This document shows, piece after piece, positions 2,805 through 53,697 of a stretch of 64,000 nt of DNA; position 1 is the first letter of the stretch, and the number at the start of each line of letters is the position of its first letter. Origin of the DNA: Turritopsis dohrnii (Eukaryota; Cnidaria; Hydrozoa; Anthoathecata; Oceaniidae); the NCBI GenBank assembly GCA_027922465.2, contig BQMF02000256.1, positions 496,001 to 560,000 on the forward strand. The letters are read 5' to 3'. A program made the position numbers and the translations under genes. The notes under the pieces were generated by a model. The model had not been told where the DNA came from, did no database searches, and worked only from the letters and a program-made list of their open reading frames with translations.

Positions 2805-3701
2805 CTATGAAATTGTTTTGAAAGCTAACTGTTCCAATCTTTCTTCTTCAGCAATTCGATACTGATAATTTTTTTTCTTCTTTATATCCTGCAACCTCTC
2901 CAATGTCATTGGTTCAATAATCAAATCTTCCAGTTTTCTTACATTAGAGATGGCCACATACGCCAAACCAATAAATTTTTCTGTATTACCTAAATCAATC
3001 CAAGCTTTATCTAAAGTAAGTCCTTGAGATTTATGGATTGATAGTCTAAGTGGTAGTTGTTGTCTCTCACAAGTTGAACCATGTAAATCAGATATGCTCG
3101 TAACAGGGATAATAGGAACACAACAGAGCTCATCTTCAAGTATACTTGGTCCAGAATAACAATCAAATTTCACTATCACTGCAATAGGTAAATTAGGAGG
3201 TGCATCACCCTCTTGAAATACAATGTCTTTCACTACACCCATAGAACCATTACATAGCCCTCTGCTGGTCCATAAATTTCTTGTCAACATTACACGGCAT
3301 CCTTTAGCTAAAAATACCTTATTTTCAAGTCCACCCATATCATCAGAAGGCAATTTTGCTGCTGTTTTATTATTGTGCCTTGCATTTATCTGTGCCACAG
3401 GTACACCAAGACTCATTAACGCTTCATGGTTGTCTTTAGCATTACTCCAATATGCATTTGTACCTGTCACATTTCTAGCATAGCGCATTAATTTCTTAAC
3501 TAAAACTGCATGACTTCCGTTTCTTACCATATCTTGTAGCTCATCAATAGTTAAATTAGCATCACCAGGGTTTTGTTTCAAATAAAAACTACCCTGTCCA
3601 AGCAAACGTCTACGATAAAGCATATTATATATAAGCCCAAAAGGCAAATCTTGGATGGGCTGCAAATCTATAAACCCATTTACCATCAATTCTTTCTGCA
3701 A
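2805..3701 (-). pseudogene. Pif1-like helicase C-terminal region joined to Helitron N-domain end
   Basis: The N-terminal third continues the Helitron N-domain (RRRLLGQGSFYLKQN, then RYARNVTGTNAYW). Right after a phrase ending in LGVPVAQINARH, the sequence is that of the C-terminal part of Pif1 helicases: KGCRVMLTRNLW, GLCNGSMGVV, PIAVIVKFD, then RLSIHKSQGLTL (motif V/VI area) and GLAYVAISNVRKLEDL. Helicase motifs I-III, including the Walker A loop, are absent although the frame stays open, so an internal deletion removed perhaps several hundred codons. The piece ends with a normal-looking stop. Known role of the family: unwinding during rolling-circle transposition. This copy cannot do it. 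Confidence 0.8.
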
Positions 3702-11054: not shown

Positions 11055-11120
11055 TGGAAGGCCCCTTCTGTCCACTGGCTGTCATTTCTTCGTCGTCGTC
11101 ACTGTCTGTCCGTTGGTTGT
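11055..11120 (-). CDS. Probable second coding exon of the HEPN-NB-ARC-TPR gene (66 nt)
   Basis: On the minus strand this segment follows an acceptor TTTTCAG and ends at a donor GTAAG. Its 66 nt read NQRTDSDDDEEMTASGQKGP in the frame that starts after two bases. The large upstream exon ends after the first base of a codon at 11986, so joining the two gives an open, in-phase product and a phase 1-1 exon. The peptide is acidic and looks like a linker or tail. The final exon was not found. Confidence 0.5.
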
Positions 11121-11935: not shown

Positions 11936-11985
11936 CCATTAAACTACAGAATCAATTGAATGTAACATATACCCTATATACTTAC

Positions 11986-14900
11986 TCAGATAGTGGAAAA
12001 CACAGAACAGATTCCACATTGTCGTTAACGTAATCGCATGTCGGCTGCCTAGTCTTTTACTCCAAACACGCAATATATCTTTGTATAATTTCATCGATTC
12101 GTCGTACTTGCCTTGATCTTTGAAAAGATTGGCTAGGATCAACATTGTCGTTAACGTACTTGGATGTCTTTTTCCTAGTATGTCACTCTGAACATGCAAT
12201 ACATCCTCATATAATTTCATCGATTCATCGTACTTGCCTTGATCTTGCAAAACAGTGGCCAGGTTCGACTGTGTCGTTAACGTACTTGGATGTCTTTTTC
12301 CTAGTATGTCACTCTGAACATGCAATACATCCTCATATAATTTCATCGATTCATCGTGCTTGCCTTGATAATGCAAAACACAGGCCAGGTTCGACTGTGC
12401 CACTAACGTACTTGGATGTCTTTTTCCTAGTATGTCACTCTGAACATGCAATACATCCTCATATAATTTCATCGATTCATCGTACTTGCCTTGACAATAC
12501 AAAACACCGGCAAGGTTCAACTGTGTCGTTAACGTACTTGGGTGTCTTTTTCCTAGCATGTCACTCTGAACATGCAATACATCCTCATATAATTTCATCG
12601 ATTCATCGTACTTGCCTTGATAGTTCAAAACACCGGCCAGGTTCGACTGTGTCGTTAACGTACTTGGATGTCTTTTTCCTAGTATGTCACTCTGAACATG
12701 CAATACATCCTCATATAATTTCATCGATTCATTGTACTTCCCTTGATAATACAAAACACCGGCCAGGTTCGACTGTGTCGTTAACGTATTTGGATGTCTT
12801 TTTCCTAGTATGTCACTCTGAACATGCAATACATCCTCATATAATTTCATCGATTCATCGTACTTGCCTTGATCTTTCAAAACACCGGCCAGGTTAAACT
12901 GTGTCGTCAACGTACTTGGGTGTCTTTTTCCTAGTATGTCACTCTGAACATGCAATACATCCTCATATAATTTCATCGATTCATCGTACTTGCCTTGATA
13001 ATTCAAAACACCGGCCAGGTTCGACTGTGTCGTTAACGTACTTGGATGTCTTTTTCCTAGTATGTCACTCTGAACATGCAATACATCCTCATATAATTTC
13101 ATCGATTCATCGTACTTGCCTAGATGTACCAAAACAGTGGCCAGGTCCGACTGTGTCGTTAACGTTCTTGGATGTCTTTTTCCTAGTATGTCACTCTGAA
13201 CATGCAATACATCCTCATATAATTTCATCGATTCATCGTACTTGCCTTGATCATGCAAAACAGCGGCCTGGTTCGACTGTGTCGTTAACGTTCTTGGATG
13301 TCTTTTTCCTAGTATGTCACTCTGAACATGCAATACATCCTCATATAATTTCATCGATCCATCGTACTTGCCTTGATCTTTCAAAACACCGGCCAGGTTC
13401 GACTGTGTCGTTAACGTACTTGGATGTCTTTTTCCTAGTATGTCACTCTGAACATGCAATACATCCTCATATAATTTCATCGATTCATCGTACTTGCCTT
13501 GATATTTCAAAACACCGGCCAGGTTCGACTGTGTCGATAACGTACTTGGATGTCTTTTTCCTAGTATGTTACTCTGAACATGCAATACATCCTCATATAA
13601 TTTCATCGATTCATCGTACTTGCCTTGATCATGCAAAACAGCGGCCTGGTTCGACTGTGTCGTTAACGTACTTGGATGTCTTTTTCCTAGTATGTCACTC
13701 TGAACATGCAATACATCCTCATATAATTTCATCGATTCATCGTACTTGCCTAGATCTTTCAAAACACCGGCAAGGTTCGACTGTGTCGTTAACGTACTTG
13801 GATGTCTTTTTCCTAGTATGTCACTCTGAACATACAATACATCCTCATATAATTTCATCGATTCATCGTACTTGCCTTGATCATGCAAAACAGCGGCCTG
13901 GTTCGACTGTGTCGTTAACGTACTTGGATGTCTTTTTCCTAGTATGTCACTCTGAACATGCAATACATCCTCATATAATTTCATCGATTCATCGTACTTG
14001 CCTAGATCTTTCAAAACACCGGCCAGGTTCGACTGTGTCGTTAACGTACTTGGATGTCTTTTTCCTAGTATGTCACTCTGAACATACAATACATCCTCAT
14101 ATAATTTCATCGATTCATCGTACTTGCCTTGATCTTTCAAAACACCGGCCAGGTTCGACTGTGTTGTTAACGTACTTGGATGTCTTTTTCCTAGTATGTC
14201 ACTCTGAACATGCAATACATCCTCATATAATTTCATCGATTCATCGTACTTGCCTAGATGTTCTAAAACAGTGGCCAGGTTCGACTGTGTCGTTAACGTA
14301 CCTGGATATCTTTTTCCTAGTATGTCACTCTGAACATGCAATACATCCTCATATAATTTCATCGATTCATCGTACTTGCCTTGATCTTTCAAAACACCGG
14401 CCAGGTTCGACTGTGTCGTTAACGTACTTGGATGTCTTTTTCCTAGTATGTCACTCTGAACATGCAATACATCCTCATATAATTTCATCGATTCATCGTA
14501 CTTGCCTTGATATGCCCAAATATTTGCTAGGTTTGACTGTGTCGTTAACGTACTCTGATGACGACTTCCAAAAATGGATTTTCGCATTTCGTTGATTTCT
14601 GCAAATGTTATTACAGCCTCAAGATGGAATCCCTTATAGAGTTTTGTTAATGCTTCTTCTTCTTGCACCTTTATTGCTGTTGGATGTGATTTCGAAAGAA
14701 GAATTTTCACTTGCTTGCCCAAGTTTGTTAAGATTTCTTCGCCTTCATGAATTTTTCCCACTGTTGTCAGTACTTTTGATAGTTTGAGTTTGACTTGATA
14801 TGTTACTGGATTTTCATCGCCATAGTCATCTATACATTCTTTAAATGCGTTATGAATTGTTCTATATGCTGTTTGATAATCGCCAATAAATAGATGAATG

Positions 14901-17011
14901 TCAGTAAGACACAGTTGCAGTTTTAATCCAATTTTACTTCTGTTAAGCGGGGGAATGCTTTCTAGTAATGTTTTAATTTCTTCAGCATTAGCAGTGTGGA
15001 GTGATATCTTAAATTTTAAAAACGCGATTCTTAGTTGAGACTTGATGTCAATATTTTGAACGTTCCATATGTGGTTGTCTATGATATTTCGGAATCCATC
15101 AAGGTTTTCGTTATTTTCAAATAAACAATTGCCATATAGACAAAGAATTTTGGATTGGGTATTCGCGTTGACTGTTTTTATAGTATTAGGCTTGACAAGT
15201 TCTTCCATTCTTTCTTTGCATTTCTTATAATCGCCATTCCTGTTGAATGCCTTTGCTTTCAAATAGCCAATGTAGATCAATTCTTCATTTGAAAACTTAA
15301 AATTCTTTTGCCAACAATTTAAATGATGGACAGCGTTTTCGAATTGGCCATGATTCAGCAATGATCGTACTGATCCTTTTACAATGTCAATGATTCCATC
15401 AATTTTTCCCATTTTGGTAGTGTTTGACAAAATACACCGATAAATGTGATTAGACCAGTATTCTCCAAACTGGAAATGCTTGTGATTCTGGCTTTCTTCA
15501 ATGGCATTTCTACACATGGTTATAACATCGCTGATGGCTCTTTGCTTCTCCTTTGCTGACATTGATTCTTGAATAACGGATTGCAATAACGAATGGATGG
15601 ATATATGTTGAGTGGCCTCATCGAACTCTACCAAAGAATATTTAGATAGCAGGGATATTGCGTCTAATATAGCCTTTGACCCAACATCATCTAATTTTTG
15701 AAGGAAGGTTTGACTAATCGATTTCCCATCGATGACCGACATGATGAACGCGATTCGTGTAGCAGTTTTATTTAATTTCAATTCGCTTAGTGCCATCTGA
15801 TATGTGACCCATATGGTCTTTTTGGTGTTGATATTATAATTTTCAGGATCGTCGACCATCACATCAGCATAATATGCTTTCAACATTTCCACGCATTTCT
15901 TAACCGTAATCCTTGCAGTTTTCATGTACGCAATAACCAGCTGCAATGCCAATGGAAGACATCCTATTTGCTCAGCTAACTCTTCATAGATTTCTGTGGC
16001 TTCTCCGTTGCATTCTTCCTTCAAAATTTTTACGATGGTATCCTGTGTTAAAAACGATAGTTTCAAATGATCAAAGTGTTGTCCCCACTGCGTATACTGA
16101 CTTGTAATCAATATATCTCCTTTATAACCATTAATTTTGGGAAGGTACCGCTTTATTTCTCCAAAATTTTTGACGTCATCCAACACAAGGATATGATTCC
16201 GTTGTGACAGAAAGTCATATACTCTTTTAACCATAACAGTTCCACTAATGGTTTGACCGTTGCTGTCAAGGCTTGACAACCCAATCACTTGTGAGACGTC
16301 TAGTAAATCTTTCTCAATGGTATTTTGGTTTTCAGCGTTTAAAAAGATGATGTTCTTGTTGTAGTGTAATTGGAACTGGTGGCAGTAGACACGTGCAAGC
16401 TCCGACTTTCCGCAACCCGACAATCCGGATATCACTACTCTTTTGTTTCCACTTGTAAATGATTGACGAAGCCAAGAAATTTCATTGTCTCTTCCGTCAA
16501 AGTTGTTTACAACATCTATTAAACCAAATTCTATATTTTCTAGATCTTCATACATCGGACGGTTAATGATGCGATCTATTTCATTTTGTGGACACCCTAA
16601 GTCGAGCAAACAGTCCGAGTAATTTTGGATGGTTTTTTGAAAATCTCCTGTTGAAATCAAGCCAAGGTGAGCGTTAGTATTCCTTAGTTTTCTGAATGTG
16701 TCAAGTTGGTTTATGTGGTCGACACTGAGGTTGCAACAGGTTTTCATGATCAATATCACTGACGTGGCATCCAAAGAGAATACATCAGTTTCCTTGGATG
16801 ATGGAAACAGCATCTGCCACTGTACTTTTCCAATATGGCGTTGGTTCTTTAGTCTTGCAAACTTCTGTTTATCCTTACTGAGGAAGCTATAGAAATCCTT
16901 TGGGACTTTTGGCACTGCATAGCCATTGTGCATAATTTCAATGATCCTTTGCAAACCATAGCAAGCTAACTGGTCAATTCGTCTACGCTTGTTTTTTTCA
17001 CTTGAATTCAT
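11986..17011 (-). CDS. HEPN-NB-ARC-TPR STAND protein (NLR-like immune receptor type)
   Basis: Large exon of an NLR-like signalling ATPase. Numbering from the ATG at 17011: residues about 15-140 resemble the DZIP3-type HEPN domain, with LLFPSS-like phrase QMLFPSSKE at 66-74 and the HEPN R-x4-H motif RNTNAH at 110-115. The NB-ARC part has P-loop GLSGCGKS 196-203, Walker B ILVLDD 274-279, LITSQYTQW near 301 and GCLPLAL 350-356. A winged-helix/linker region follows, then helical TPR-like repeats and 20 almost identical 42-residue TPRs. I chose 17011 because a clear acceptor (TTTCTTTCTCACAG) ends at 17018, just upstream, so the 5' UTR is probably in another exon and the open frame up to 17074 is intronic. 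The frame stays open to 11939, but a strong donor GTAAGT follows 11986. Known role of the architecture: nucleotide-switched oligomerising sensor, with the HEPN domain as effector or adaptor. Ligand unknown. Confidence 0.85.
12012..14532 (-). repeat. Array of 20 tandem 126-bp units encoding TPRs
   Basis: Twenty units of exactly 126 bp encode 42-residue TPR motifs. The core GKYDESMKLYEDVLHVQSDI is nearly invariant. Differences cluster in the first eight residues of each unit (types such as AGVLKDQ, ATVLEHL, AAVLHDQ, AGVLNYQ, AGVLYYQ) and in a few sites of the HPSTLTTQSN end. The last unit, at the low-coordinate end, is the most diverged. Units 4-8 alternate two types, which suggests duplication of a two-unit (252 bp) block. 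The near-identity at DNA level implies recent unequal exchange or gene conversion. Confidence 0.95.
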
Positions 17012-17074
17012 TGTTGGCTGTGAGAAAGAAAATAAATATAAACATGTATCTTTTTGCATAGTGAATAGGACCAA

Positions 17075-18810: not shown

Positions 18811-21385
18811 GTTACACCGACAAATGTAGTAACTCCAACAAATGTAGTAAATTTTCAACGACAAATTTAGTAACTCTGACAAATGTAATAAAAAAATCAA
18901 CGAGAAATGTAGTAATTTCGCTAACGTACTAAACCTACGTTTAATGTAGTAAACGCCTTAAACGTTGAAATGAGCCATAATTAGTTAAAGCACATAAACG
19001 TCTTTATCGAGTAGCTTTGTAAGGGCTGTCAAGTGGCGATAAAAAAACTCAAAAGGCGCATGCGCAGTAAAAAATTGCTAATATGAGCTACATGAGCCAT
19101 AATTATGTAAAACGCTTGACCATATAATAAAACTCAAAATCGCGCATGCGCAGAAAAAACTGTCAGGCTGAACTTAGGTAAAACGTATAAAGGTCTTCAT
19201 CAGATAATATTTCAAGAGTTATAAAGTGACCATATAATAGAACCCAAATTCGTGAATGCACAGTGAAATCATTTAGATAGCATCATTTCAAGCTAAGTTT
19301 GTGGTAAAATTGATATGTGTATACATGTAATATTCATCACTGCCAGCAACACATAAGAAGTGTTTGTTTGAAGGTATCCTGAATTCAATTGACGTCACAC
19401 ATAAAAGGGTTTACCTCCTTCCCACGAATCACGAGCCGATTAGAACTGAAACGTTAACTTAAAAAGCGATTGTGATCACAAGCTAGTTGTGTAAATCACT
19501 TAAGGCTATATTTGTTTGTGTCACAAATAAATAAATGAGTTCGAGATATCTATAATAATATCAGAACAAGAGGTTCTCAAGCTGCTTCAACATTCCCACA
19601 ACATTCTGAGAGCCATGTTTTCAGTGTATACGCTAGGCATACGTAAATGTTGCCTAATCTTGATTTGCTGTTAACTACAAATAATAAATATAAATATCAA
19701 ATGGTTGTAGTGTACATATTGCGATGTGTGTGTAGGAAGTATATAGACCTTCCATGGAATAGTAATGCATGGCGGCAATTGTATTCATATAAATACAGAG
19801 TTAAAGAAAACCTATATCTTCTATTTACAATTATTATTGTTATTATTACTATTATTTGTTCTGTTTTATCTCTTTTATGTTTTTCTATATAAAGGTATAT
19901 TTATTTGAAGAAGGCTTTTAAACTTACTGGACACGATTTACTGGGGCCATATAGATTGATTAACATAGTCTTGTACACTTCATCATCAATGACAGATAAA
20001 GACCTGGGACTTCGGGCACAAACCAAACAAACAAAAGGAACTAGGATTAAAAGAGCGCCCTTAATTACTTTATTAGCTATGGTTGTTTCTTCCTCCACGA
20101 TTGCTAACATATATACTGGTCAATATTTGTGTATTTTATCTTTTTAAAAATATTTTTACTTGAACATGTACGCATAAGTGGTATCTTTTATGCTAGTACG
20201 CTCACAGTGTGAATAACTAATTCTTTTAAACGAACCAAACCGGCGACAATAATAAGCTATCACTGGTATGTCAAACGTGGGATGTATTTAAAGCAGTCCT
20301 ATTTCTTTACTTCAGTAAAACATACGGTTCAGCTGTGGTAAACTTTTTTCGCCCTTGGATGTAAAAAATCAAAATATTTGAGAATAGTACCAGTAAAAAA
20401 GTACCATAGCAATAGTACCAGTATAAGTGAAAACTTCCTTGTTTGGTAAAAGTTAACAGGAACTGACATATGCTTATAGTAAGAATTTCTATTCCCCCCA
20501 AAAATAATACACAACACAATAATGAAAAGTTATAGTCTGACCTTTAAAAGTTACCTGATTAAGACCTTCGAGTGTTTCACCTAAAGGCCGATCTCCACTT
20601 ACGCGGTCAGTTTTGCGCATGCTCAGTGACAACTATTGCTCAACTTTGTTGGCCGTTGACGTCCATATTTTATGCGTTTGAAAGTAGGATTCGACTCTAC
20701 TTTTTCAGACGGCCGCGCAGCCATCTAGCATGTGAGCCAATCAAATTTTAAGAAAAATGCAAACATTGCAAAAAATTGTAAACATTGTGAATAAAAGAAA
20801 TGCTCAACCACGACTTTCTTTATCAACTGGAGATTGAAATTAATTGGTCGCGCGGACGTTCGTACGTATGTACGCACAAGTGGAGGTCAGCCTTAAGTAT
20901 GGCTAATTTAGCGTGCATTTAGTACTGCGCATGCGCGATTTTGAGTTTTATTACATGGCCACCTGATAGCCCTTGAAAAGTTACTTCGTGGAGACCTTGA
21001 TGCGTTTTGCCTAATTATTGCTCATGTAGGGCATATTAGCATTTTGTTACCGCGCATGCGCGTTTTGGGTTTTATTTTATGGCCACTTGGCAACCTTTAC
21101 AAAACTACTCGATAAAGACGTTTATGTTTTTTACCTAATTATGGTTTATTTACCTCATATTAGTGTTTTTTTACTGCGCATGCGCGATTTTGGGTTTTAT
21201 GATATTGCCACCTAATAGCCCTTGCTATGGTGAATACCTATACGTGTACCTAATTATGGCTCATTTCAACGTTCAAGGCATTTAGTACATTTGACGTAGG
21301 TTTACTACATTAGGCGAAATATTACAACATTTGTCGTTGATTTTCACTACATTTGTCGGAGTTACAACATTTGTCCATGTGTAAC
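18811..21385. mobile_element. Large foldback element (~2.6 kb) with ~500 bp subrepeat-rich arms
   Basis: The left arm (about 18811-19290) and right arm (about 20905-21385) are inverted copies. Both outer ends begin with GTTACAC, several CGACAAATGTAGTAA-type phrases and then AACGTTGAAATGAGCCATAA. Within each arm a unit of about 110-130 bp recurs, marked by the palindrome GCGCATGCGC beside AAAACTCAAAA. About 1.6 kb separates the arms, partly filled by a Harbinger-type MITE (20585-20893). No transposase is seen inside. Foldback elements of this kind are non-autonomous. The exact target duplication could not be defined. Confidence 0.75.
20585..20893. mobile_element. Harbinger-type MITE with TAA target duplication
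   Basis: A 309 bp element with inverted ends: left AGGCCGATCTCCACTTACGC, right complement AGGCTGACCTCCACTTGTGC. TAA flanks both sides (20582-20584 and 20894-20896), matching the 3 bp TWA duplication of PIF/Harbinger transposons. It contains no coding capacity and is nested inside the foldback element, so it is the younger insertion or was carried along. Confidence 0.7.
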
Positions 21386-39605: not shown

Positions 39606-40768
39606 GTGTTGTAAAGTCTTGCAATATTCAAATGGTCAAAAATGTCATGGAGCAAATAAAAGAGCTGACATATTTCTTTAAATATTCTGACTCTCGTCAG
39701 AAGATTCTTTCTGCCAACATAGCTCAATACTGCCTTAATTCACGAACTGTTAAGATGACAGATGTTTGTCGGACTAGGTGGGTAGAGAGAATCACAGGAA
39801 TGAATGACTTTGTCAGTTTGTTTCCTGCCATTGTATGTTGTATGGAGGAAATGAGTGAGAACTTGGACAAAAGGTGTAATAGAGATACCTCACTTAAAGC
39901 ATCAGCATTTTTAGCCCTTATCACATCTTTTCCATTCATTGCCTCACTTGTCATAGCACGAAATATTCTAGATAAACTGTTGCCTGTTACAAGACTGCTT
40001 CAGGCATCTGCAATTGATTTGTCGGAATCTTTGAAACTTATCAATGCATTGAAGGCAGATTTTTTGATGACGAGAGATAACATTGACTGCAATCATGAAA
40101 AATGGTATAATGAAGCAAAAGTTCTAGCAGAAAGGGTTGGAGTTATGGAGTGTAGACCTAGACTTTCTGCTAGACAGGTTCACAGATGTAACGTTCCTTC
40201 TGAAACTCCATCTGAATATTTCAAGCGGTCAGTTTCCATTCCATTAATTGATCATTTGATAAGTGAGCTCAACTATAGGTTTGACGACTGTCGTTCATAT
40301 GAAGGCTTACTTATCATACCAGCTAAAATGATTTCTTTGTTAAATCAAGCTAATTGGAAAGATAGGTTTCTTTCTTTTTGCCAATTCTATAAAGATGATT
40401 TACCATCACCTTTATCTTTGGAGAATGAATTGTTGTTATGGGAAAGGTATTGGATTGGTTATGAAGGTTCCTATCCTGATAATATTCCTAATACCCTGAA
40501 AGCCATCAACTTCCCTGGTTTTGAAAACTTGAAGGTCGTTTTAAAGATACTTGGAACATTGCCAGTTACAACTTGCCAATGTGAACGTTCGTTTTCTGCT
40601 ATGAAAAGATTGAAAAATTATGCCAGAACAACGATGGTGTCTGAAAGATTGAATGGGATTGCATTAATGCACATCCACCAGGAGATCGATATAAATATTT
40701 CTTCAGTCATCGATCTGTTCAGTCGTAAGAATAGAAAACTTTCTTTTACACGCCCAATTTCTGAGTAG
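39569..40768 (+). pseudogene. hAT transposase C-terminal part (truncated)
   Basis: The frame is open from about 39569 and begins in the middle of the conserved phrase VHC.SHRLSLSVVKSC, so the annotated ATG at 39632 is internal. It continues with TRWVERITGMNDF and ends with the hAT dimerisation region: TTCQCERSFSAMKRLKNYAR, then SERLNGIALMHIHQEI. About 390 codons remain. The BED/TTF zinc finger and the catalytic N-terminal half are missing. Known role: cut-and-paste transposase. This remnant may have dimerisation capacity only. It could be spliced to the OTU-like exon through an acceptor at CTCATCGCCTCAG (39600). I cannot verify that. Confidence 0.75.
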
Positions 40769-43961: not shown

Positions 43962-44335
43962 TAACTCGAGGTTAGAATACTAAGTCTAGGTTAGAATACT
44001 AAGTCTAGGTTAGAACTTCTAAGTCGAGGTTAGAACTTCTAACTCGAGGTTAGAACTTCTAACTCGAGGTTAGAACTTCTAACTGGAGGTTAGAACTTCT
44101 AACTGGAGGTTAGAACTTCTAACTCGAGGTTAGAACTTCTAACTGGAGGTTAGAACTTCTAAATCGAGGTTAGAACTTCTAACTCGAGGTTAGAATACTA
44201 ACTCGAGGTTAGAACTTCTAAGTCGAGGTTAGAACTTCTAACTCGAGGTTAGAACTTCTAAGTCGAGGTTAGAACTTCTAACTCGAGGTTAGAACTTCTA
44301 ACTCGAGGTTAGAACTTCTAACTCGAGGTTAGAAC
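43962..44335 (+). repeat. 20-bp minisatellite, left part (~19 copies)
   Basis: Repeats of AACTCGAGGTTAGAACTTCT, with variants AAGTC.AGG and a shortened AATACTAACTC form. The unit contains two palindromes: CTCGAG, and GTTAGAA-C-TTCTAAC. The array is cut at 44335 by the Polinton and continues in the same orientation at 60517-60601. Confidence 0.95.
44330..44335 (+). other. Left target-site duplication TAGAAC
   Basis: TAGAAC immediately precedes the Polinton start (AGAGATAGG). The same six bases follow its right end at 60517-60522. A 6-bp duplication is the Polinton hallmark. Confidence 0.85.
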
Positions 44336-45654
44336 AGAGATAGGAAAGTGCCGATTATAGCGCAAAATTATATCCCTCCTAATCATAAGCGAGAATCCCT
44401 GTCAATTTTTCTCTCATAAACATAACATGGAAAATCATATGATTTCGGGTATTTCCCTACATAAAGTTTAATCAATAAATGAGTCCAACCATGAACTTAT
44501 TATTATTGAAAACAAAACTCCCTTAGGAGGAACCCCCTAGGGTTTTTTGTTGTTGTTATTGTTGCTGTTGTTGTTGTGATACCCTAGAGGGTTTTTAATT
44601 CATTGTCTTCAATCTAACCGGCACTCCACCCTGTATTCTCGAATCCACCAGCTCTGAGCTCTACCCCTAGATTAGACTAGTTGTGTGTGACTACTTAGGA
44701 ACTCCGACTACTACGCACGCAATGGCCGTTCATGATCTGTTCGAGTATATTACATCTAGTCACATTGTTTTTCCCGACAACTTTTGGCACATTTTGTGGT
44801 GAATACCGGGAGCGGACGGCACCATCCAGTTCCAATCTAGCCGCTCCACTAGACCTTCCCTTTCCAGCAGACTCTGTCGCCTGTTCACCACAATTTCAAA
44901 TTATTCCGCTCTTGGGTTTTATATCATTCATTTAGACCTCAGTGTCTGCTTGTGGTGTCTCTCGGAACGCTATAATTTTCTTCGATTTGACGGTAACCAT
45001 CTTTTTATGTTCAAAACAGCTTTTTGTTATGACTATATAGCATTTTTTTATTTTGATTACATAACAAAATTCTCAAATAACAACACGTAAGCAGTTTTTT
45101 ATTATTATAACCACAAATTACTCATAAATGTAAACAATTAAATATCTCATAAAAAATGTCCATAGGGAAATCCCCGATTGTCGTAAAAAGCAGTTTGTAG
45201 CAGTTTCATTTTTATAACATAAATGAGCTAACAATACATATAACACACAGATCAGCGTAGTCTAGTGGATAAGAACGCTAACTTGTAACAGCAAGGTCGT
45301 GTGTTCGAACCCCACGCAGTTCGTCTGAGAGGAAGTATATATACTTCGGCGGTTGTAGATCTCTCATGTCCTGGTTGTAAAACTTGCATGAGTGCGCACT
45401 TTCCCGCAGTTTGTGTTGAATATATCGCGGAATGGTTAGCATTGTGTCTGGGTGATTTATCACTGTCAGGTTTCTCTGGTCCATAGAGACATTCAGGTTA
45501 CCGTCATTTCGATCGAAATTCAACAAACGCCAGGGCTTAGAAGTGTCAGCATGTATCCACAATGCCGACTATAATTGCAAACTACATGCGCTGATCAGCG
45601 AAATATATACCATATACTAAACATCGTGGTAATCGCTAAAACCAAAGCTATTTT
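44336..45654 (+). repeat. Polinton left terminal inverted repeat
   Basis: It pairs without indels with 59199-60516 (position x pairs with 104853 minus x). At least six single-base differences were noticed by eye in 1318 bp. Near the outer end are CCTAGAGGGTTT, a CAA/TTG-rich run and CCCCCTAGGG. The inner part holds a tRNA-like sequence and the last 20 codons of the neighbouring minus-strand gene. Confidence 0.95.
45250..45322 (+). tRNA. tRNA-like sequence inside the left TIR (Thr-UGU-like loop), probably non-functional
   Basis: It has an A-box-like TAGTCTAGTGGATAAG, the loop CTTGTAA (as in tRNA-Thr with anticodon TGT), and a good T arm and B box (GTGTTCGAACCCC). The anticodon stem barely pairs, and the ends do not form a normal acceptor stem. 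It is therefore a decayed tRNA, a tRNA-derived insert or a pol III promoter-like signal. The second copy lies in the right TIR. Confidence 0.5.
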
Positions 45655-46748
45655 CTCTTCTTCGTGAGATGGGAGTGAATCTGCTTGACTCACTCTTTTG
45701 TGAACTTCCTTTTGTGAACTTTTATTTTTTGTTTGTGTTGGAGAGCTAGTCACCTTGTTTGAAATATGATGCTCTTGCATAACATTAATCATTTTATTTC
45801 TTCCGAGGCTCAAGTTGTCATTAGATATGAGAATTTTATTATTATAACCAGACACTCCCGACTTGATGTTTAGATTCATGTCACTAGGTAACATGTAAAT
45901 ACCTTGTCCAACTGAATGATCAACTTTGCTTGGAGCGTAATTTAAAGTATCTTGATAACGTTTAATGTCATCTTGAATATCAACTCTGCGGTTAACAATG
46001 TCTTCAAAGTTGTTCATAAAAACTCTTTGAGCTGTCAAAGAGCTTGAATTATTACCTAAGATAGAAGAACGAGCTGAGGCTTGCGAACTAAGAACAAGAT
46101 AAGCATATGCTCTAACACTCTCTGAAATTTTTACAAGACCTGTTTTTGTAAAGCCTTTAGATTTTTCTATAATCCACCGTGGCATGGAATCATCTGTGAA
46201 ATAACTCAGACCTGGCGTTGGATAGTTTCTACGTCTTTTTTGATACGAGCTGTAAAAATATTGTCCTTCGTATTTTTTAGGATCAGAATCGACACCATAT
46301 TCACTACAGATTTTTAAAAACTCTTCTTTGTTATAAGGATTATCGTATTGGTTGAAACTTCAAAAGGTAGAGGTGTCTGCAAGCGCTTAATGATTCGTCT
46401 AATGTGATAATAGACGTGAAAACGATATACTGCTCTAATCATAGGAGTAGAGCGACCTTCTTTCAGATGTTCAGAACTGACTCCACAAGCACTTGAAGCA
46501 CACCAAGTGACAAAATTGAGTTGGGTTTGCCATAATTTAAATGGTTGTTCCTGCCAAATTTTCATGCGTTGTTCATTTTCATCCATTTCGTAATTAGTAA
46601 AAATATTGGGAAAGCTCGCAGGAAAAGAACCATTTTCAGAGACAATAATTGTTTGTTTGTATAAATCTTTAGAATTCAATATCTGAAGGTATTGTCCTCC
46701 ATTTGGTTTATAAAGCGCATTGGGAGCATATTTAAAAATATTCTCCAT
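45595..46748 (-). pseudogene. Polinton conserved protein of unknown function, frameshifted
   Basis: Two frames form one gene: 46748 to about 46340 and about 46350 to 45595. The first begins MENIFKYAPNALYKPNGGQ and contains QLNFVTWCASSACGVSS. The second has PRWIIEKSKGFTKTGL, SVRAYAYLVLSSQASARSS and a C-terminal hydrophobic segment. The codons between about 46350 and 46185 are open in the second frame, so a single frameshift near 46345 explains the break. A protein of this form (about 380 residues) accompanies Polintons of cnidarians, as I recall. Its role is unknown to me. It starts 38 bp from the divergent minor capsid gene, and its last 20 codons lie in the TIR. Confidence 0.7.
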
Positions 46749-46786
46749 TATTTAAAAATATAATCCTCTATTCTCTAATACAAGAA
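46749..46786. promoter_or_regulatory. 38-bp divergent intergenic region
   Basis: This AT-rich gap separates the start codons of the minus-strand gene (46748) and the minor capsid gene (46787). It contains TTTAAAAATATAATCCTCTA. A related TAGAGGATAAT phrase occurs in the other divergent gap at 52562-52616, so a shared promoter element is possible. Confidence 0.4.
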
Positions 46787-47338
46787 ATGTATATCACAGT
46801 AAATGTTGCAAAAGGAGAAAAGACCATATATCTATCTTACCCCATTCAAAATATGGATGGCTCAAAGGAAATTGCATTGGTTGATATGTTTGCAGACAAT
46901 GTTACGTATGAAATAACCACAGAGTTGAAACTGGCTCATGGGAAAGCTGAAAAGTTGATACCTCAAGGAACATTCACGAGCAGGGAATTGAATGCCTTTT
47001 TAGCAGGTGCCTTTTTAGCACGTGATGTAAAACTTACCTCATTAGACAAAGACCCTCGAATAATCAAAACAAATAAGCTCGCTAAAATAATCAAAATTAA
47101 TTTGCATCTCTCTGAACTCGACAACACTCAAAATCTTGAGAATGGAAAGCTAAGTGATATTTTACTAACCTATCACATGGCTGAATATAGTGACTTCACA
47201 CATGTTGAGCCTAAAAACCCTCAGTACAAAAAATTAAAAAATGGTGTATTTCAGTCTCTCACGTTGAAACTCACAGATCAGCATGGTAATATGCTAAAAG
47301 AAGACCTAGGAAGAACCGTTGTTTTGCACATCCGCTAA
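46787..47338 (+). CDS. Minor capsid protein (penton-like single jelly roll)
   Basis: A 183-residue protein that starts at the first ATG after the divergent gap and ends with YKKLKNGVFQSLTLKLTDQ, then a closing VVLHIR. The position directly before the major capsid gene, the length and this C-terminal phrase match the Polinton minor capsid (penton-base-like) protein. Beta-strand-like alternation runs through the chain. Expected role: vertices of an icosahedral particle. No stop or frameshift is seen, so this gene is intact. The fold assignment is from family resemblance, not from a structure search. Confidence 0.75.
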   Translation: MYITVNVAKGEKTIYLSYPIQNMDGSKEIALVDMFADNVTYEITTELKLAHGKAEKLIPQGTFTSRELNAFLAGAFLARDVKLTSLDKDPRIIKTNKLAKIIKINLHLSELDNTQNLENGKLSDILLTYHMAEYSDFTHVEPKNPQYKKLKNGVFQSLTLKLTDQHGNMLKEDLGRTVVLHIR

Positions 47339-47381
47339 ACCGAGATAAAAAGTAATAATTAATTATATATCATAATTAATA

Positions 47382-48708
47382 ATGGAGTATGGAAAGAGGT
47401 TAAATCCAGAACGTTCACTTAGAACTGCCCGCGGTGTAAAAGGCTCTCGTCAAAAAGTAATTGTCACACACAATCCAAGTGAGATTGATCAAAATCAGTT
47501 ATTGTTGGTTAGGTTTCCAAATTTAGGAAGTGATGATGTTATTATCCCAGGAACAACGAATCTAAGTTTTGATATTGAACTCGAATCGACAGCTGACTCA
47601 AAAAGAACATTGGTCAGTAACATTGGAAGAGCTATCATTAAGAAGTTGGCTGTCAAGTTTGAAGGTAATGAGATATTGAGCATCGATGACTTTGATCTTT
47701 TTGGGTGCTACAGAGATTTATGGTTAACCAAGTTTGAAAAGAGAAACGCGATAAGACAGGGTATCATCATCGACGATGGGTGTACAGAAAATTGTATGAT
47801 ATTGAGGATCAACGCTTCTGATAAAGATGATAATGATGATGAAGATGATAATGATGATGAAGACAAAGCCATTGCTGACACCTATAAAAACAAGTTTGTC
47901 ATTCCACTCGATTATGAAATGCTAGATAGCACGATCCCTTATTATCAAGCGGGTTTAGGTAATAGATTGTGCTATGAGATCACATTTAATGACTATAACC
48001 GAGTTATCTATTCTAACCCTCCTGATACTGCCGCAGGTCAAAAAGTTAACCCTGATGCTAAATACAAAATTTCTAACATATCTCTAGAATATGAGCTTGT
48101 GACACAACCCACGTTGGCTAGACAAATCGCTTCTGAATATCAAAACATGGCTTTGCTCTATGATAGGATTTTGCGGCACAGACAAATTAGAGTAAACAAG
48201 TCAGACACAACGTTGAATTGGTCATTCAACACACCTGCCAAATCTTTGAAGGGTATTTTAGTTCTATTTGAAGAAGAAAAATCCTACAAGCGGGATACCG
48301 GTAAGTTCTACAATCCAAAGATCAAAAAGGTCATCTGTCATCGTTGAGGGTAAGCCTAACCAACTTTTTGCTCAAGGGATGCAGCCGTTTGAACAATACA
48401 ATGAGATTTGCAAGTATTTTGCTGAAGGAAAACCAAAAGATAATAGCGTCGGTGAAAACCGAAAGCGCTTGGGATTACATGATGTAAAAGTCTCTGATTA
48501 CTTAACAAACAAGTATGCTCTATGGTTAGATTTCAGAACAATTGATGAGAATGGGACCGGTCGAAGGATTGAAAATGCGAGTGAAGGCATCACTTTACAG
48601 ATTGAAAAGACCGCTGAAACTGCAGGAAGCTTAAACGCTTATATATATCTAATAATGGATGCTCAATTAAACATACAAAACGGTCAATTTATGTCTGCAT
48701 TATATTAG
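47382..48708 (+). pseudogene. Major capsid protein (double jelly roll), frameshifted near 48330
   Basis: The first frame (47382-48347) opens with MEYGKRLNPERSLRTARGVK and has IPGTTNLSFDIELES, LLYDRILRHRQI and KGILVLFEEE. The second frame (in use from about 48330 to 48708) continues with VEGKPNQLFAQGM, YALWLDFRTIDENGTGRRIE and a C-terminal YIYLIMDAQLNI. Together these match the Polinton major capsid protein in length (about 440 residues) and order. An acidic D/N/E-rich insert (DDNDDEDDNDDED, about residues 148-160) comes from a GATGAT-type repeat. A one- or two-base indel near 48325-48335 breaks the frame, so no full capsid subunit can be made from this copy. Confidence 0.8.
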
Positions 48709-48712
48709 TAAA

Positions 48713-49318
48713 ATGGATACACTTTACATGAAAGAGCCTCACACAGCACTATTCGTTGGACCAACATCGTGTGGTAAAACGGATCGTGTTGTAAAATTAT
48801 TAGAAAATGAATACTTTGATCACTTTGATTTCATCGTGATTATATGTCCCACCTTAAGGTGGAATCAGACTTACAGAGATCGGAAGTGGTTCTGGAATGA
48901 CAGCTATGTGATTTTAATTGAGCCGGAAGGATCTTTGTATGAATGGATTAAGAAAATGGACTTTTTCTGTGCTGGATATAAAACCTTATTTCTGATTGAT
49001 GATATAATAGCTGATGAAAAATTGGACAAAAAGAGACAGCCTTTGCTTGAATTGGCAATTAGCGGTAGACATCGAAATCATTCGCTATGGTTACTCACAC
49101 AATCATACACAGCTATACCTAAAAATTTACGACGGCAAGCTAAAATGTTATATGTGTGGTATCCAAAAGATAGAAACGATCTAACCACCATTCATGAAGA
49201 GAATGATGTCATTGATTCACAAGAAGAATTGAAAGATGTCAAGGAAAAACTGAAAGGAGGGAAACACACGTGCCTAGTCATGAGAATGGAACATCCGAGA
49301 ACGTATGCAATTTGTTAA
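48713..49318 (+). CDS. A32/FtsK-HerA type genome-packaging ATPase
   Basis: A 201-residue ATPase that starts four bases after the capsid gene. Walker A GPTSCGKT is at residues 16-23, Walker B TLFLIDD at 91-97, and a sensor-like LLTQSY at about 123-128, followed by NLRRQAKMLYVWYP. The size and motifs match Polinton and adenovirus-like/NCLDV packaging ATPases, which drive DNA into the capsid. The frame is intact. The gene is probably expressed with the capsid genes upstream. Confidence 0.9.
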   Translation: MDTLYMKEPHTALFVGPTSCGKTDRVVKLLENEYFDHFDFIVIICPTLRWNQTYRDRKWFWNDSYVILIEPEGSLYEWIKKMDFFCAGYKTLFLIDDIIADEKLDKKRQPLLELAISGRHRNHSLWLLTQSYTAIPKNLRRQAKMLYVWYPKDRNDLTTIHEENDVIDSQEELKDVKEKLKGGKHTCLVMRMEHPRTYAIC

Positions 49319-49605
49319 ACAGGTTGACGTTATTTGTTACATGACTCTTGTAACAAAAATATAAGACTTGCAAGACTGTTATAAGAGTGCTATAGCAGTG
49401 CTATACAGCAAATTACAGCAAAATTATAAGAAGATAGCAAACTCTTATACAGCAAATTACAGCAAAATTATAAGAAGATAGCAAACTCTTATACAGCAAA
49501 TTACAGCAAAATTATAAGAAGATAGCAAACTCTTATACAGCAAATTACAGCAAAATTATAAGAGAATATAAGAGAATATAAGAAAATTATAACAAACACA
49601 ACAAA
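49319..49605 (+). repeat. Intergenic 44-bp tandem repeats (~3.7 copies) after the ATPase gene
   Basis: A unit with CTCTTATACAGCAAATTACAG, given here as two parts CTCTTATACAG and CAAATTACAGCAAAATTATA, recurs three to four times between about 49400 and 49562 with few changes. It fills the gap between the ATPase and the next gene. It may have arisen by replication slippage, or act as a promoter or terminator region. Confidence 0.85.
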
Positions 49606-50250
49606 ATGATAGAATATGTCAACTTCATGTTATTAAGCATACTGCTGGTCTCGCTATTTTACTTTTATTCTGTATTAAAAAAATACCTCTCTCTAATAAA
49701 AATGGTGGAAACAGCGATCGATAATTTAATCAACCAGAGTTATGATGTTCCGGGTGAATTTCCACCTTCAGATGGTAAAAAGCATAAATTGCTCGAGTGT
49801 GTCTTAACTGGAAATAGCAAGCTATACTTAGGGAAAATGTACACGGAAGAGCAAATTAACAAACTCAAAGATGAAGAGGTAGAAAAACTTTTTAGTATCT
49901 ACGAGGCTAAACTATCAGGTCAAATGGTAAAATCCTTGGGGAAATCACTCATACGTATTTATTCCATGGGAGCTTGTGCAACGTTAGGAATAAACAATCA
50001 AGATGCGCTGAGTAATGACCTGGAAACTGACCCCTTCTTAAACTCTGCCCTTCAAAGATTTACATGTGACTTATATTATAAATTCGGCTCATTATTAGCA
50101 CCACTCAGTGTTGGACTTATTACCGGGAGGCATTATATCAATAAAAGAAATTTAAATAAATCCGATGATAATATAAATACAGCAGATAATAAAAATGTCA
50201 GAAGAACAGACTCCCATTCAAGTGACAACGAAGAACCCAAAAAAGGTTGA
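49606..50250 (+). CDS. Polinton membrane protein of unknown function
   Basis: 214 residues. A hydrophobic N-terminal segment (about residues 6-24, FMLLSILLVSLFYFY) suggests a membrane anchor. The middle part has YTEEQINKLKDEEVEKLFSI and then MVKSLGKSLIRIYSMG, and a second weakly hydrophobic region lies near FGSLLAPLSVGLITGRHYI. The C-terminal tail is polar. I recognise it as a recurrent Polinton companion but know no function. The frame is intact. Its last 56 nt overlap the next gene in another frame, which argues that both are real. Confidence 0.65.
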   Translation: MIEYVNFMLLSILLVSLFYFYSVLKKYLSLIKMVETAIDNLINQSYDVPGEFPPSDGKKHKLLECVLTGNSKLYLGKMYTEEQINKLKDEEVEKLFSIYEAKLSGQMVKSLGKSLIRIYSMGACATLGINNQDALSNDLETDPFLNSALQRFTCDLYYKFGSLLAPLSVGLITGRHYINKRNLNKSDDNINTADNKNVRRTDSHSSDNEEPKKG

Positions 50251-50539
50251 AGCGGGTAAGAAGTTGGCGGAATACAACCGTAAAAAACGAGAACAATTAA
50301 AACAAGTGTCACCTCAAAAAGAAGTGGAGAAGCCCGAGGCCTCTCTCACCAAACCAAATGAACAACCTATGAACTACACCTATGGTGTAGGTGGAATAAT
50401 AGCTCTCGGTTTAGTTGGTGGATTTGCTTATTTTGTGTATAAAAAGAAAGAGCAAATATTACCCCGTGGGTCACCATCCACCCCCCTTCCACAAAAATCT
50501 AAAATACCAGTGAAAATCAATAAACATGAAATGGAATAA
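50195..50539 (+). CDS. Small single-pass membrane protein
   Basis: 114 residues: a basic N-terminal region (KKVEAGKKLAEYNRKKREQ), one clear transmembrane segment (GIIALGLVGGFAYFVYKKK, about residues 68-86) and a proline-rich tail. This KNPKKVEAGK..A..N...K pattern recurs in Polintons in my memory. The function is unknown, possibly a virion membrane or assembly protein. It overlaps the gene before it by 56 nt. Confidence 0.65.
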   Translation: MSEEQTPIQVTTKNPKKVEAGKKLAEYNRKKREQLKQVSPQKEVEKPEASLTKPNEQPMNYTYGVGGIIALGLVGGFAYFVYKKKEQILPRGSPSTPLPQKSKIPVKINKHEME

Positions 50540-50586
50540 AAGGATAAATAACGCTATATATAATCTCGCAATATATGTAACAAAAC

Positions 50587-50814
50587 ATGGACAAGAAAAG
50601 TATCGTCAACGATTTATATCACGCATCAGTCATATCGACACTCGCTATCGGCTACTCCATGCTTGTAAAAAAGGTGTTAAAAATGACACCTCCTTCAATT
50701 CAAAAGTTTGACTTGGAAGATACGGGAAAACTAGTTGCCATTATCGCCGCTAGTGAAGTGACACGAGAATACTTAATTAAGCAAAAGATTTTACCTGAAA
50801 ATATCAATATCTAA
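50587..50814 (+). CDS. Small Polinton protein of unknown function
   Basis: 75 residues with a mildly hydrophobic N-terminal half and the phrase LVAIIAASEVTREYLIKQK near the C-terminus. It ends two bases before the next start codon, as in a tight gene cluster. The frame is intact. I recognise the C-terminal phrase from other Polintons but know no role. Confidence 0.6.
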   Translation: MDKKSIVNDLYHASVISTLAIGYSMLVKKVLKMTPPSIQKFDLEDTGKLVAIIAASEVTREYLIKQKILPENINI

Positions 50815-50816
50815 AT

Positions 50817-51239
50817 ATGGCTTCAATCGCAATGATGTTAGGTGGAGCTTTAGCTAACGCTTTGGCTTTCACAGGATCAAGCTATCTGTTTTCAAGTTTA
50901 TCCAAAGACAGAATCGATAAGGAAAGAAAACGTCATGATTTGGCCATAGAGAAATTACAAAAAGCACAGATTGAATGGCAGCAAAAACGACAGGAAAGGA
51001 TCGATTTCATCAATAAACAACTATTGCTCGAAAAGAAGGCTGAGACTAAATTCGTAGAGCTAAACGATGCAATGAGAGAGTACAATAGGGTGTTTAGTAA
51101 TCATCTTGAACCGCTACCACGGGAGCCTGTATTGAGCGACTTTTATACACCGAGTCATGATCAACATGAAAGAGAATTGACTTTTATAGCTATGAGTATG
51201 CTTGGAATTGGTGGAATTGTGTGGTATTTTGAAAGATGA
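50817..51239 (+). CDS. Conserved Polinton coiled-coil protein with C-terminal hydrophobic segment
   Basis: 140 residues. The N-terminal segment MASIAMMLGGALANALAFTG is hydrophobic, then a coiled coil follows (DKERKRHDLAIEKLQKAQIE and on to about residue 80). LPREPVLSDFYTPS precedes a final hydrophobic helix (MSMLGIGGIVWYF). The protein is very conserved among cnidarian Polintons as I recall. It may be a structural or membrane-associated virion protein, but its function is unknown. Intact. Confidence 0.7.
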   Translation: MASIAMMLGGALANALAFTGSSYLFSSLSKDRIDKERKRHDLAIEKLQKAQIEWQQKRQERIDFINKQLLLEKKAETKFVELNDAMREYNRVFSNHLEPLPREPVLSDFYTPSHDQHERELTFIAMSMLGIGGIVWYFER

Positions 51240-51290
51240 AGACCGTCAACAAAAATTATGTTACACGATACATGTAACATATACACTTTC

Positions 51291-52561
51291 AGATGGTTAC
51301 CGTCTAGTGACAAGGTACGTATAGATCAACCCCCCAACCCCTACAATCAGAGCCCATAAATTTTGACTTAACCAACCTACAACTTCTTTTGCCCTGTTCA
51401 ATATCCATGATACGATAGACCCAATTATTCCTGGTAAAGCCTCTGCCGCTTTAGATGCTCATCTACCTAGAAGTGATGCTAACGCTTTGAGTTTATTTTT
51501 TATCCATTCCTTCGCATCGTCCTTTTTATCATCACCTTTGTCAGGATTTTGTGAAGAGCTTCCAGCTGCTGATCCTCCAGGTAGCAAAGCTTCCACAAGA
51601 ACACCGATGGCCATACCAAACGCTGTCAGAATGCTAACGATTGTTATACCTTGTTCACGGAATAGTGTTCGTATCCTTTCACCTAATGTGGTATCTTTAT
51701 CGAGGACTTTAGCAATGGTTTCTTTGATGCTCGTAACTTGACTATTTAGTTTGCCTTTGAGAATATTAATGTTCTCTTTCCTAGCTTTCAACTCTTCACG
51801 TTATCCCTCCATTCTCTCTTCAACCTTTGTATCATTTTCATTTCTTCCAACTTGTTTTTCTCCTTATCAATATGCTGTTCTATTCGAACCTTTTTTGCAA
51901 CCTCTTCCTGAAGACCTCCTCGTATGTTTCTCAGCGCTTTATCTAATCCTAACAGCTCACGTACAGGATATTCAAATAGATCACCGGTCTGAGTTGTTTC
52001 ATGATCGACCGATTGTTGTCTCAGCGTTGAAATTAAATCTTCCGTACTGTTCACCACATCACCGGACATATCTTCCAACTCTACATCGGTTGCTGTTGTG
52101 ATTTTAGATGTCGAGGGAAGCTCTTCTGCTATTTTGTTAAGTACAGCTGCCTGTCTGGCTGAAAATTTGCTCTTAGGTATATCATAACCTAAACTACGTA
52201 ACCTGTTCTTACCCAATTTGTCAGCTATAGTACCAGTAGCCCTTAGTCTTCCATTGTTTGTCAATGGTTTGCTACTGTCTTTGTAGTATAATTCACCATC
52301 TCTAATTTCAAACTGATCGGTATATAACACCTCAGGTTTTGACTGGAATTTGTCGGATAATCTATCATACAACCCTTCAACTAGTTCTTTCAAAACTCTA
52401 GTATTCAGACTGTGACCTCCAAATGATGTTTCTCGTTCACCTGATGTATGTATCTGTGCACCCGTACAATCAGCGGTCGGTATGAGAGGAAACGTCTCAT
52501 CGGTTGTTTCATCTGTCGTCATCCCATGTTCTCCAAAGGGGTCAATGTCAATGTCTGCCAT
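51291..52561 (-). pseudogene. Polinton coiled-coil/membrane protein, broken by a frameshift and a stop
   Basis: One gene in three pieces: 52561-51788, 51791-51459, and a continuation, open in the same frame after the TGA at 51459-51461, to a stop near 51291. The first piece has GYDIPKSKFSARQAAVLNKI and a coiled coil (EVAKKVRIEQHIDKEKNKLE). The second has SIKETIAKVLDKDTTLGERI and a hydrophobic stretch ending VEALLPGGSAAG. The third is hydrophobic and ends with two membrane-like segments. The intact family member is about 420 residues (recollection), and its role is unknown. The breaks are a frameshift near 51795 and one premature TGA. It is divergent from 52617 and convergent with 50817. Confidence 0.75.
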
Positions 52562-52616
52562 TTTATTTATTTAGAGGATAATTTATTATTTATTATGTTA
52601 TAACAACCCTCTAAAT
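52562..52616. promoter_or_regulatory. 55-bp divergent intergenic region
   Basis: This AT-rich gap (ATTTATTTAGAGGATAATTT) lies between the starts of the minus gene (52561) and the plus gene (52617). AACCCTCTAAAT-like sequence at its right end (ACCCTCTAAA) partly resembles the TIR motif CCCTCTAGGG. Confidence 0.35.
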
Positions 52617-53213
52617 ATGAGTTTTAAAATTTATCCAAAACTACCCACTGCTCCTGAGGATTTGAATGAGCAGGAAAAGTTTAACGCAAGCGTAATAAAT
52701 TCAGAATTTGATGAGTTGATAAAACTAAAGAACAAATTTAACACCAAGATCAAGAGATACAACAAGGCGATAGAACGATCGATGCTAGTAAATGCTAGCT
52801 CAAGCGCTATAACCATTGGCTCTGGCATCGGTTCAATTGCAACAGGGGCTACTATTATCGGAATACCTATTTCTGCAGAATTAGGTGGTGTAGCCTTAGC
52901 CGGCTCTATCTGTACCGGACTTACCACAGCTGTCATCAAAAGATATCAAAAGAAAGTATAAAAAGTGATAAAATTATATGATATTGTTACATCCTCAATT
53001 TCTGTCTTTGAAACTAACATAAGTCAGGCGCTGACTGATGGGAGGATCAATTACAAAGAATTCCAGGTTTTGCAGGGGACATATTACAAAGCTTTAGAAA
53101 GACTCAGTTCTACAGATAGAAAGATGGAGACTGAAACCCAAAATCAATTTCAAAAAAGTTTGATGGTAGAACTTCAAAACCTGAAAAAATCCATAAACGA
53201 AAATGGTTACTAG
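52617..53213 (+). pseudogene. Polinton Gly-rich membrane protein, split by an in-frame stop
   Basis: Two ORFs in the same frame (52617-52961 and 52965-53213) are separated by a single TAA at 52959-52961. The first contains a coiled region and two glycine-rich hydrophobic segments (SSAITIGSGIGSIATGATII and ELGGVALAGSICTGL). The second has FETNISQALTDGRINYKEFQ and a helical tail. The phrase D(G).I...EF..L appears in the C-terminus of a single longer protein in related Polintons (recollection), so one nonsense mutation is the likely cause. Function unknown. Confidence 0.65.
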
Positions 53214-53297
53214 GATGTGTGGTTATGTGCTCCTCAATTTGAAAAAGTGATAAATGAAACTGATATAAAGAAATATGATCACAAGTATATATAGACA

Positions 53298-53634: not shown

Positions 53635-53697
53635 AAACCTCGTCGCTAGACGACTCATCTTTACTTGTTTCTAGTAAAGATACTTTGTATGTACGGT

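Follow-up and report, generated by a model that had tools for sequence, protein, structure and literature searches.

Variation at predicted groove positions in a homogenised TPR array of an NLR/STAND-type gene from Turritopsis dohrnii

What use could a protein make of twenty TPR units that are nearly identical in DNA and differ from one another mainly at a handful of residues? This question is raised by a gene in a 64,000-nucleotide stretch of the Turritopsis dohrnii genome (contig BQMF02000256.1, positions 496,001 to 560,000; the whole stretch is called the window below). A first-pass annotation had seen in the array a recombining recognition surface with diversity on one face, and had likened it to repeat-based immune receptors. 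With a probability of roughly 0.7, we read the gene as encoding a cytoplasmic receptor of STAND/NLR type, in which a sensor formed by the TPR groove is diversified by selection and recombination and is joined to a predicted RNase effector.

Gene model and domain architecture

The TPR array lies in a single long open frame on the minus strand (11939-17074), the strand of all features of the gene given here. The likely start codon (17009..17011, MNSSEKNKRRR) is M1 in at least 90% of 21 aligned paralogues, with the consensus MNSSE, and a predicted splice acceptor, TTTCTTTCTCACAG, is located immediately upstream of the ATG at 17011. Pfam matches, all above their cut-offs, follow in the order HEPN_DZIP3, NB-ARC, DUF7779 and TPR_10/TPR_12. 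HEPN_DZIP3 (PF18738), a predicted ribonuclease effector, occupies 16541..16894 (E 2.7e-7, 30.9 bits against a cut-off of 27) and contains the catalytic-type Rx4H motif RNTNAH at 16667..16684. The NB-ARC ATPase at 15890..16444 (E 4e-9) has a Walker A (GLSGCGKS), a Walker B and a GLPL-type motif, and is followed by DUF7779 at 15548..15778 (E 3.2e-7). A diverged TPR-like region (14561..15547), modelled as helical with block pLDDT of 56-92, separates the ATPase from the homogenised array, and the array itself comprises 20 near-identical units of 42 residues (PF13374/TPR_10) at 12041..14560, as placed by TRF, Pfam and the TPR register. Half of a unit 21 (HAITLTTMWNLFCVFHYL, 11986..12040) then leads to a predicted splice donor, GTAAGT, at 11985; an array end like this one (MWNLFC, then FHYLS, CHYLS or YHYLS) was present in five of seven other arrays inspected. 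The probable next coding exon is a 66-bp acidic one at 11055..11120 (NNQRTDSDDDEEMTASGQKGPS), bounded by predicted splice sites in phase 1 at both ends, and a DEEMTVS stretch resembling it is found downstream of the array of the C134 paralogue. All introns and exon joins of the window gene were predicted from splice-site sequence. Long plus-strand frames across the array are by-products of the repeat, and their Pfam matches are weak or short.

This arrangement, with an N-terminal effector domain (HEPN_DZIP3), an NB-ARC that has its Walker A and scores above the Pfam cut-off, and a C-terminal repeat sensor (the TPR array), is that of a STAND/NLR-type receptor. Moreover, the HEPN_DZIP3 match together with the Rx4-6H motif places the effector in the DZIP3/hRUL138 family of the HEPN RNase superfamily. 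The HEPN part of the N-terminal structure model had a pLDDT mostly below 50 and its fold was not confidently modelled, hence the HEPN assignment rests on the Pfam match and the invariant motif. Judged by its domains (HEPN, NB-ARC, DUF7779, TPR), the window gene is an NLR/STAND-type protein, and the likeness to repeat-based immune receptors drawn by the first-pass annotation is thus apt. An immune role is suggested by this architecture.

The gene family and its proposed working

We searched the N-terminal 817 residues against the genome assembly (436 Mb in 891 contigs). They matched 58 places, 49 of which, the window gene included, covered at least 650 of the 817 residues; 26 of these near-full-length copies were at 60-100% identity, 22 at 41-45% and one at 27%. 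By hand count, 43 of the 49 were stop-free within the N-terminal match. Two of the copies, C520 and C725, are 99.5% identical in the compared coding part and might represent a single locus recovered twice. The R, N and H of the HEPN RNxxxH motif are kept in all 29 paralogous loci that cover it among 30 fetched; Walker A is present in 30 of 30 and in-register TPR units in 29 of 30, with within-array DNA identity ranging from 0.66 to 0.96. When 21 stop-free paralogues were scanned, NB-ARC was matched in every one and HEPN_DZIP3 in 20. Pairwise dN/dS in 25 closer copies had a median of 0.34 for the N-terminus and 0.25 for NB-ARC (299 of 300 pairs used, medians over defined values only). Intact motifs and constrained N-termini thus indicate a family that is being maintained overall and is not decaying. 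At least two copies with a stop-free N-terminus carry stops in the array, namely the C51 47k copy (L028) and C56; the latter (L054, G000:C56) has a homogenised array of 21 units with a single in-frame stop in unit 9, which would mark either a recent pseudogene or an assembly error.

Seven loci (L027, L028, L035, L037, L039, L043 and L044) have the HEPN motif context RNASAHFSLRTTAT or one close to it, and most others have RNTNAHLGLISTG; the presence of two contexts among the paralogues suggests that HEPN segments were exchanged between loci. Homogenised TPR arrays were also seen at two more distant loci, L056 and L057 (G000:C5 and G000:C35), of which C5 also has HEPN_DZIP3, NB-ARC and TPR and C35 carries a long TPR array. 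A protein search with the N-terminal part returned 44 proteins, the best at 26% identity, and one with a paralogue profile returned 43, with no close named animal homologue among the matches listed for either; both searches scored only candidates sharing most words and so give no proof of absence. Among the matches listed for the profile, the top three combine HEPN_DZIP3 with NB-ARC at 27-29% identity.

In the receptor that we propose, the concave groove of the C-terminal TPR superhelix would bind a protein or peptide that is foreign or altered; this would release the NB-ARC ATPase to oligomerise, and oligomerisation would gather the N-terminal HEPN domains, so that RNA is cut and the cell is halted or killed. 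Ligand binding, oligomerisation and RNase activity are the properties that we infer for the window protein. Unequal exchange and gene conversion, both inside a locus and from one locus to another, would drive the evolution of the array; they would keep the backbone uniform and reshuffle the units, and diversifying selection would alter the groove-lining residues. Because the genome holds dozens of gene copies, these could make up a repertoire of groove surfaces on a shared effector. A more far-reaching version, which we regard as doubtful, is that the germline carries a repertoire of receptors armed with an RNase, with TPR arrays that form a modular reading code of one interchangeable groove element per unit; unit exchange within and between the dozens of loci would then continually make new specificities, and individuals would differ in array order like strains at fungal het loci.

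Homogenised sensor arrays that recombine are well documented in the NLRs of fungi, and some of them drive non-self recognition there. According to the accessible text of Dyrka et al. (2014), 21.2% of the TPR repeats of fungal NLRs and 0.8% of metazoan ANK/TPR/WD repeats are highly conserved internally, repeat number is polymorphic among wild isolates in eight Podospora ANK/TPR genes, and selected sites were on the concave side at the single TPR locus analysed in depth. Fungal NLRs thus described share with our gene the NB-ARC with a homogenised TPR array, concave-side sites that are variable and positively selected, varying repeat number and inferred shuffling. They differ in that an HEPN_DZIP3 effector is not described in that text, and in that repeat number varies there among wild isolates, whereas here the variation is known between paralogues. 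This resemblance bears on a second possibility, that the protein is an allorecognition receptor, in which the same machinery would serve an array that recognises a polymorphic partner from its own species and triggers rejection, as fungal het NLRs do. The nearest behavioural match is indeed fungal, in homogenised TPR/ANK/WD arrays with repeat-number polymorphism, and the accessible fungal literature has het-d/het-e reading HET-C alleles; however, dozens of gene copies would suit a broad repertoire better than a few rejection loci, and we consider the allorecognition receptor unlikely.

Parts of this architecture are also reported from animals. In the accessible text on corals (PMC10236652), as here, TPRs are the usual repeat of NB-ARC proteins and many N-terminal DZIP3-like HEPN domains occur among NACHT/NB-ARC proteins, but no three-domain protein, homogenised arrays or site-specific selection are described in it. 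In the DZIP3/hRUL138 HEPN family (PMC3710099) and the HEPN/NACHT genes of pearl oyster (PMC9646362) the Rx4-6H motif is mostly conserved, as in our family, and there are TPR and NACHT fusions and lineage-specific expansions; those genes carry NACHT where the window gene has NB-ARC, and homogenisation of repeats is not described in the accessible parts of either paper. From the same partial texts, the range of HEPN_DZIP3 is mainly animal (PMC3710099) and the pearl oyster genes vary in copy number between haplotypes (PMC9646362). Large TPR gene families are also reported, in the text accessible, for Acropora TPR-CHAT genes (PMC12314368), in which TPR length is very variable between copies and the effector is CHAT, and for NACHT/NB-ARC-TPR genes of Hydra viridissima (PMC7642931); the authors of both link expanded TPR families to recognition, and unit-level analysis, given here, is not described in those texts. 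The TPR-like repeats of P. anserina (PDB 4y6w, 4y6c) are of the same 42-residue type with near-identical units, although the solved chains are repeat constructs only. In the literature searched, which was mostly without subscription papers, we found no animal HEPN/NB-ARC family described as having TPR arrays that are homogenised and diversified on one face. The parts of the architecture are thus known from animals and the array behaviour from fungi, with their combination apparently unreported in that literature, and an evolutionary behaviour documented in fungi would here go together with a predicted RNase in an animal gene. If this is true, the shuffling of repeat modules would give animals, too, fast-evolving receptor repertoires, beyond antibodies, VLRs and LRR-based NLRs, and the question becomes what the groove binds and whether binding activates the predicted HEPN RNase.

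Replacement changes at groove-type positions

TRF reported 20.1 copies of 126 bp at 12020-14554 with 93% matches, and units 2-19 have a mean pairwise DNA identity of 94.7% (minimum 89.7%), which confirms the tandem array of twenty near-identical 126-bp TPR units; the coordinates 12012-14532 of the first-pass annotation are right for the array and about 28 bases off the TPR register, 12041-14560. Mean protein identity over all 20 units (840 residues) is 85.9%, above the threshold of Dyrka et al. (2014) of >85% identity over at least 100 residues, for which T-reks was used there and mean protein identity here. All seven modules named by the annotation (GVLKDQ, TVLEHL, AVLHDQ, GVLNYQ, GVLYYQ, GVLYCQ and TVLQDQ) are present, and so are GVLKDL, GVLKYQ, TVLVHL, CVLHYQ, NIWAYQ and NLFKDQ.

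Changes in the window array were counted as path averages against the commonest codon, with the end units 1 and 20 left out, which gave totals of 37.5 distinct replacement and 6.5 silent changes. Codons 13, 16, 17 and 18 of units 2-19 hold 19 of these replacements and no silent change; we take them to be TPR positions 9, 12, 13 and 14, converting the 42-residue unit to the 34-residue TPR numbering by our own alignment to TPR consensus residues (unit position minus 4). Diversity on one face is therefore concentrated, as had been claimed, but not confined, since the other 38 codons have 18.5 replacement and 6.5 silent changes (dN/dS about 0.77, near neutral). Likewise, the face extends beyond the single helix of that claim: unit position 35 in helix B, which is outside the published variable set and constant in window units 1-19, is among the most variable positions in sister arrays. 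Mutagenesis by a diversity-generating retroelement was considered and dropped, because the changes are not limited to template adenines: the hot codons also change at G (GAT to TAT/CAT, GGT to GCT/TGT/ACT).

In the accessible text of Magliery and Regan (2005; PMC1261162), TPR positions 2, 5, 9, 12, 13, 33 and 34 are the most variable and are exposed on the concave face. These seven positions hold 25.5 of the 37.5 replacements of the window array. When six homogenised arrays were pooled, they had N 92 and S 6 (dN/dS 4.25), against N 104.7 and S 47.3 (dN/dS 0.60) at the other 35 positions (Fisher P 1e-6 for the replacement/silent contrast), and 62 of 100000 random seven-position sets matched the concave set. 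The published set was picked after the window array had been seen; with that array subtracted, the five others gave N 66.5 and S 4.5 at concave positions and N 92.7 and S 42.3 elsewhere. Moreover, the six hottest positions taken from the five other arrays hold 22 of the 37.5 window replacements, which was equalled by 19 of 100000 random sets. The excess of amino acid change expected by the first-pass annotation on the predicted ligand face is therefore borne out by the pooled arrays. This seven-position test used longer versions of the same six arrays that a comparison of 28 arrays had at an identity of at least 0.9, again without window units 1 and 20 and with the C56 unit that has the stop dropped. 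In that comparison, which left out L044 (the same array as L043) and L046 (without an array), the six gave pN/N 0.257 and pS/S 0.042 at codons 13, 16 and 17, and 0.040 and 0.049 at the other 39 codons, counted on 11 units from each of five arrays and 18 from the window array, with the C56 stop unit kept. Six additional arrays, of which four belong to the distant subfamily and two lie at other loci, gave dN/dS of 1.60 versus 0.68; nine had been examined, C346, C124c and C554b were left out by a size/identity rule, and units with stops or below 0.88 identity to the consensus were removed. All of these selection figures come from counting, not from a codon model, and ignore phylogeny, recombination and mutation bias.

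The fit to the published positions is not complete, in that positions 33 and 34 vary little in the arrays here, and outside codons 13, 16 and 17 replacement change is also above silent change in C42a and C42b (strongly) and in C56 (slightly). With the concave location taken from published TPR numbering, the counts point to the concave-face variable sites with diversifying selection that Dyrka et al. (2014) used as a criterion. In a wider sample, 71 of 120 relatives listed from 1831 protein matches have internally similar arrays by a 0.6 identity rule, and their most variable positions are 13, 16, 35, 6, 3, 17 and 9; since these are much the same, the pattern appears general to this TPR repeat type. 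Neutral repeat turnover, that is slippage and conversion under relaxed constraint with random replacements and no selected recognition surface, would suit the near-neutral dN/dS of the window array outside its four hot codons, and protein repeats are reportedly under positive and strongly relaxed purifying selection, judging by the title of one study (PMC5120217). We find it quite improbable as the whole account, because replacements concentrate at the seven published positions with the dN/dS contrast given above, other arrays vary at largely the same positions, and the N-termini are constrained.

In structure prediction, units 1-10 were modelled as a regular TPR solenoid (pLDDT 89) with helices at unit residues 2-17 and 21-39, and this model matches solved O-GlcNAc transferase, kinesin light chain, the P. 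anserina TPR-like repeats 4y6w/4y6c and other TPR superhelices. The N-terminal model (pLDDT 74) has Foldseek matches to the STAND-TPR protein 6mfv, Apaf-1, CED-4 and plant NRC resistosomes. By sequence, the array is closest among solved proteins to kinesin light chains and to a KLC-like repeat protein of fungi, and PF24885 TPR_NPHP3 also matches the window protein in Pfam, as would be expected of a kinesin-light-chain or nephrocystin-like adaptor whose array scaffolds host cargo and whose variation tunes cargo choice. Such an adaptor is highly improbable, because the N-terminal model matches STAND, apoptosome and resistosome proteins, the family is large with change at groove positions, and kinesin light chain is not known to have HEPN or NB-ARC.

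Turnover of the arrays and the rest of the window

Longer array stretches were compared for eight genes including the window's, and at most about 12 units for other loci. C42a and C42b share 97.0% identity in their N-terminal coding parts, and their 15-unit arrays are not collinear: identity is 0.9587 on the diagonal and 0.9574 off it, and the diagonal is best for 2 of 15 units. A block of seven units is duplicated in C42b (lag-7 identity 0.98), which was equalled by 1 of 2000 shuffles, and C134 has a periodicity of eight units, equalled by 2 of 2000. The duplication and the non-collinear pair support the view of the first-pass annotation that these arrays recombine. It had also named, as the finding that would refute it, a constant number and order of units that differ by nothing but silent changes, and this is contradicted between paralogues, in which array length and unit order differ (within one assembly). 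No significant best lag was found among 2000 shuffles for C42a (176), C56 (210), C106 (1285), C554 (95) or C256b (1001), nor block structure in units 1-20 of the window array (193), where adjacent units tend to resemble each other a little more (79 of 2000).

At their best offset, only C520/C725 among nine sister pairs are fully collinear (6 of 6 units); L047/L049, at 95.1% identity, are partly collinear (5 of 12), L030/L034 match in 2 of 12, and the remaining six pairs are hardly collinear, with 1 of 4-8 units. We give hardly any weight to an assembly artefact, in which near-identical repeats were collapsed or mis-joined into a false unit order or copy number: Podospora arrays are described in accessible text as unreliable in short-read assemblies, but 436 Mb in just 891 contigs suggests long reads, the amino acid changes follow TPR structure, and the near-identical C520 and C725 agree throughout.

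N-terminal and array similarity are weakly correlated (Spearman 0.27, 276 pairs). In the N-terminus, two C554 copies and C256b are the nearest to the window gene (about 92%), whereas its array is closest to that of C106 (0.906), whose N-terminus is at 0.862 to the window's. The nearest C554 copy has a 5′ flank 91% identical to the window's in a 1520-column alignment, and its array units average 0.80 to the window's. Thus, the array is the fast part of the gene. In only 10 of 24 loci is the array more similar internally than to any other array, and 16 of 28 arrays examined have less than 80% within-array identity, hence homogenisation is not universal. Strict locus-by-locus concerted evolution holds for that minority of 10 loci and was rejected as the general rule; exchange between loci appears to fit better.

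Elsewhere in the window, a cluster of frames at 45595-59120 resembles a mobile element of Maverick/Polinton type, with an A32/terminase-like packaging ATPase (48713-49318), an rve integrase (53698-54681), Rho_N (55224-56840) and endonuclease VII (56865-59120). Arrays of a 20-bp unit (TAACTCGAGGTTAGAACTTC, in rotation) at 43962-44335 and 60517-60601 flank this cluster. Repeats at 18818-18915 and 20915-21375, upstream of the gene, are partly mutual reverse complements (ACAAATGTAGTAA / TTACTACATTTGT), and the stretch that they flank is possibly a small non-autonomous element. A frame at 39632-40768 has a hAT transposase C-terminal dimerisation domain, and a fragment of a Pif1-type helicase (2B domain) is present at 2805-3701.
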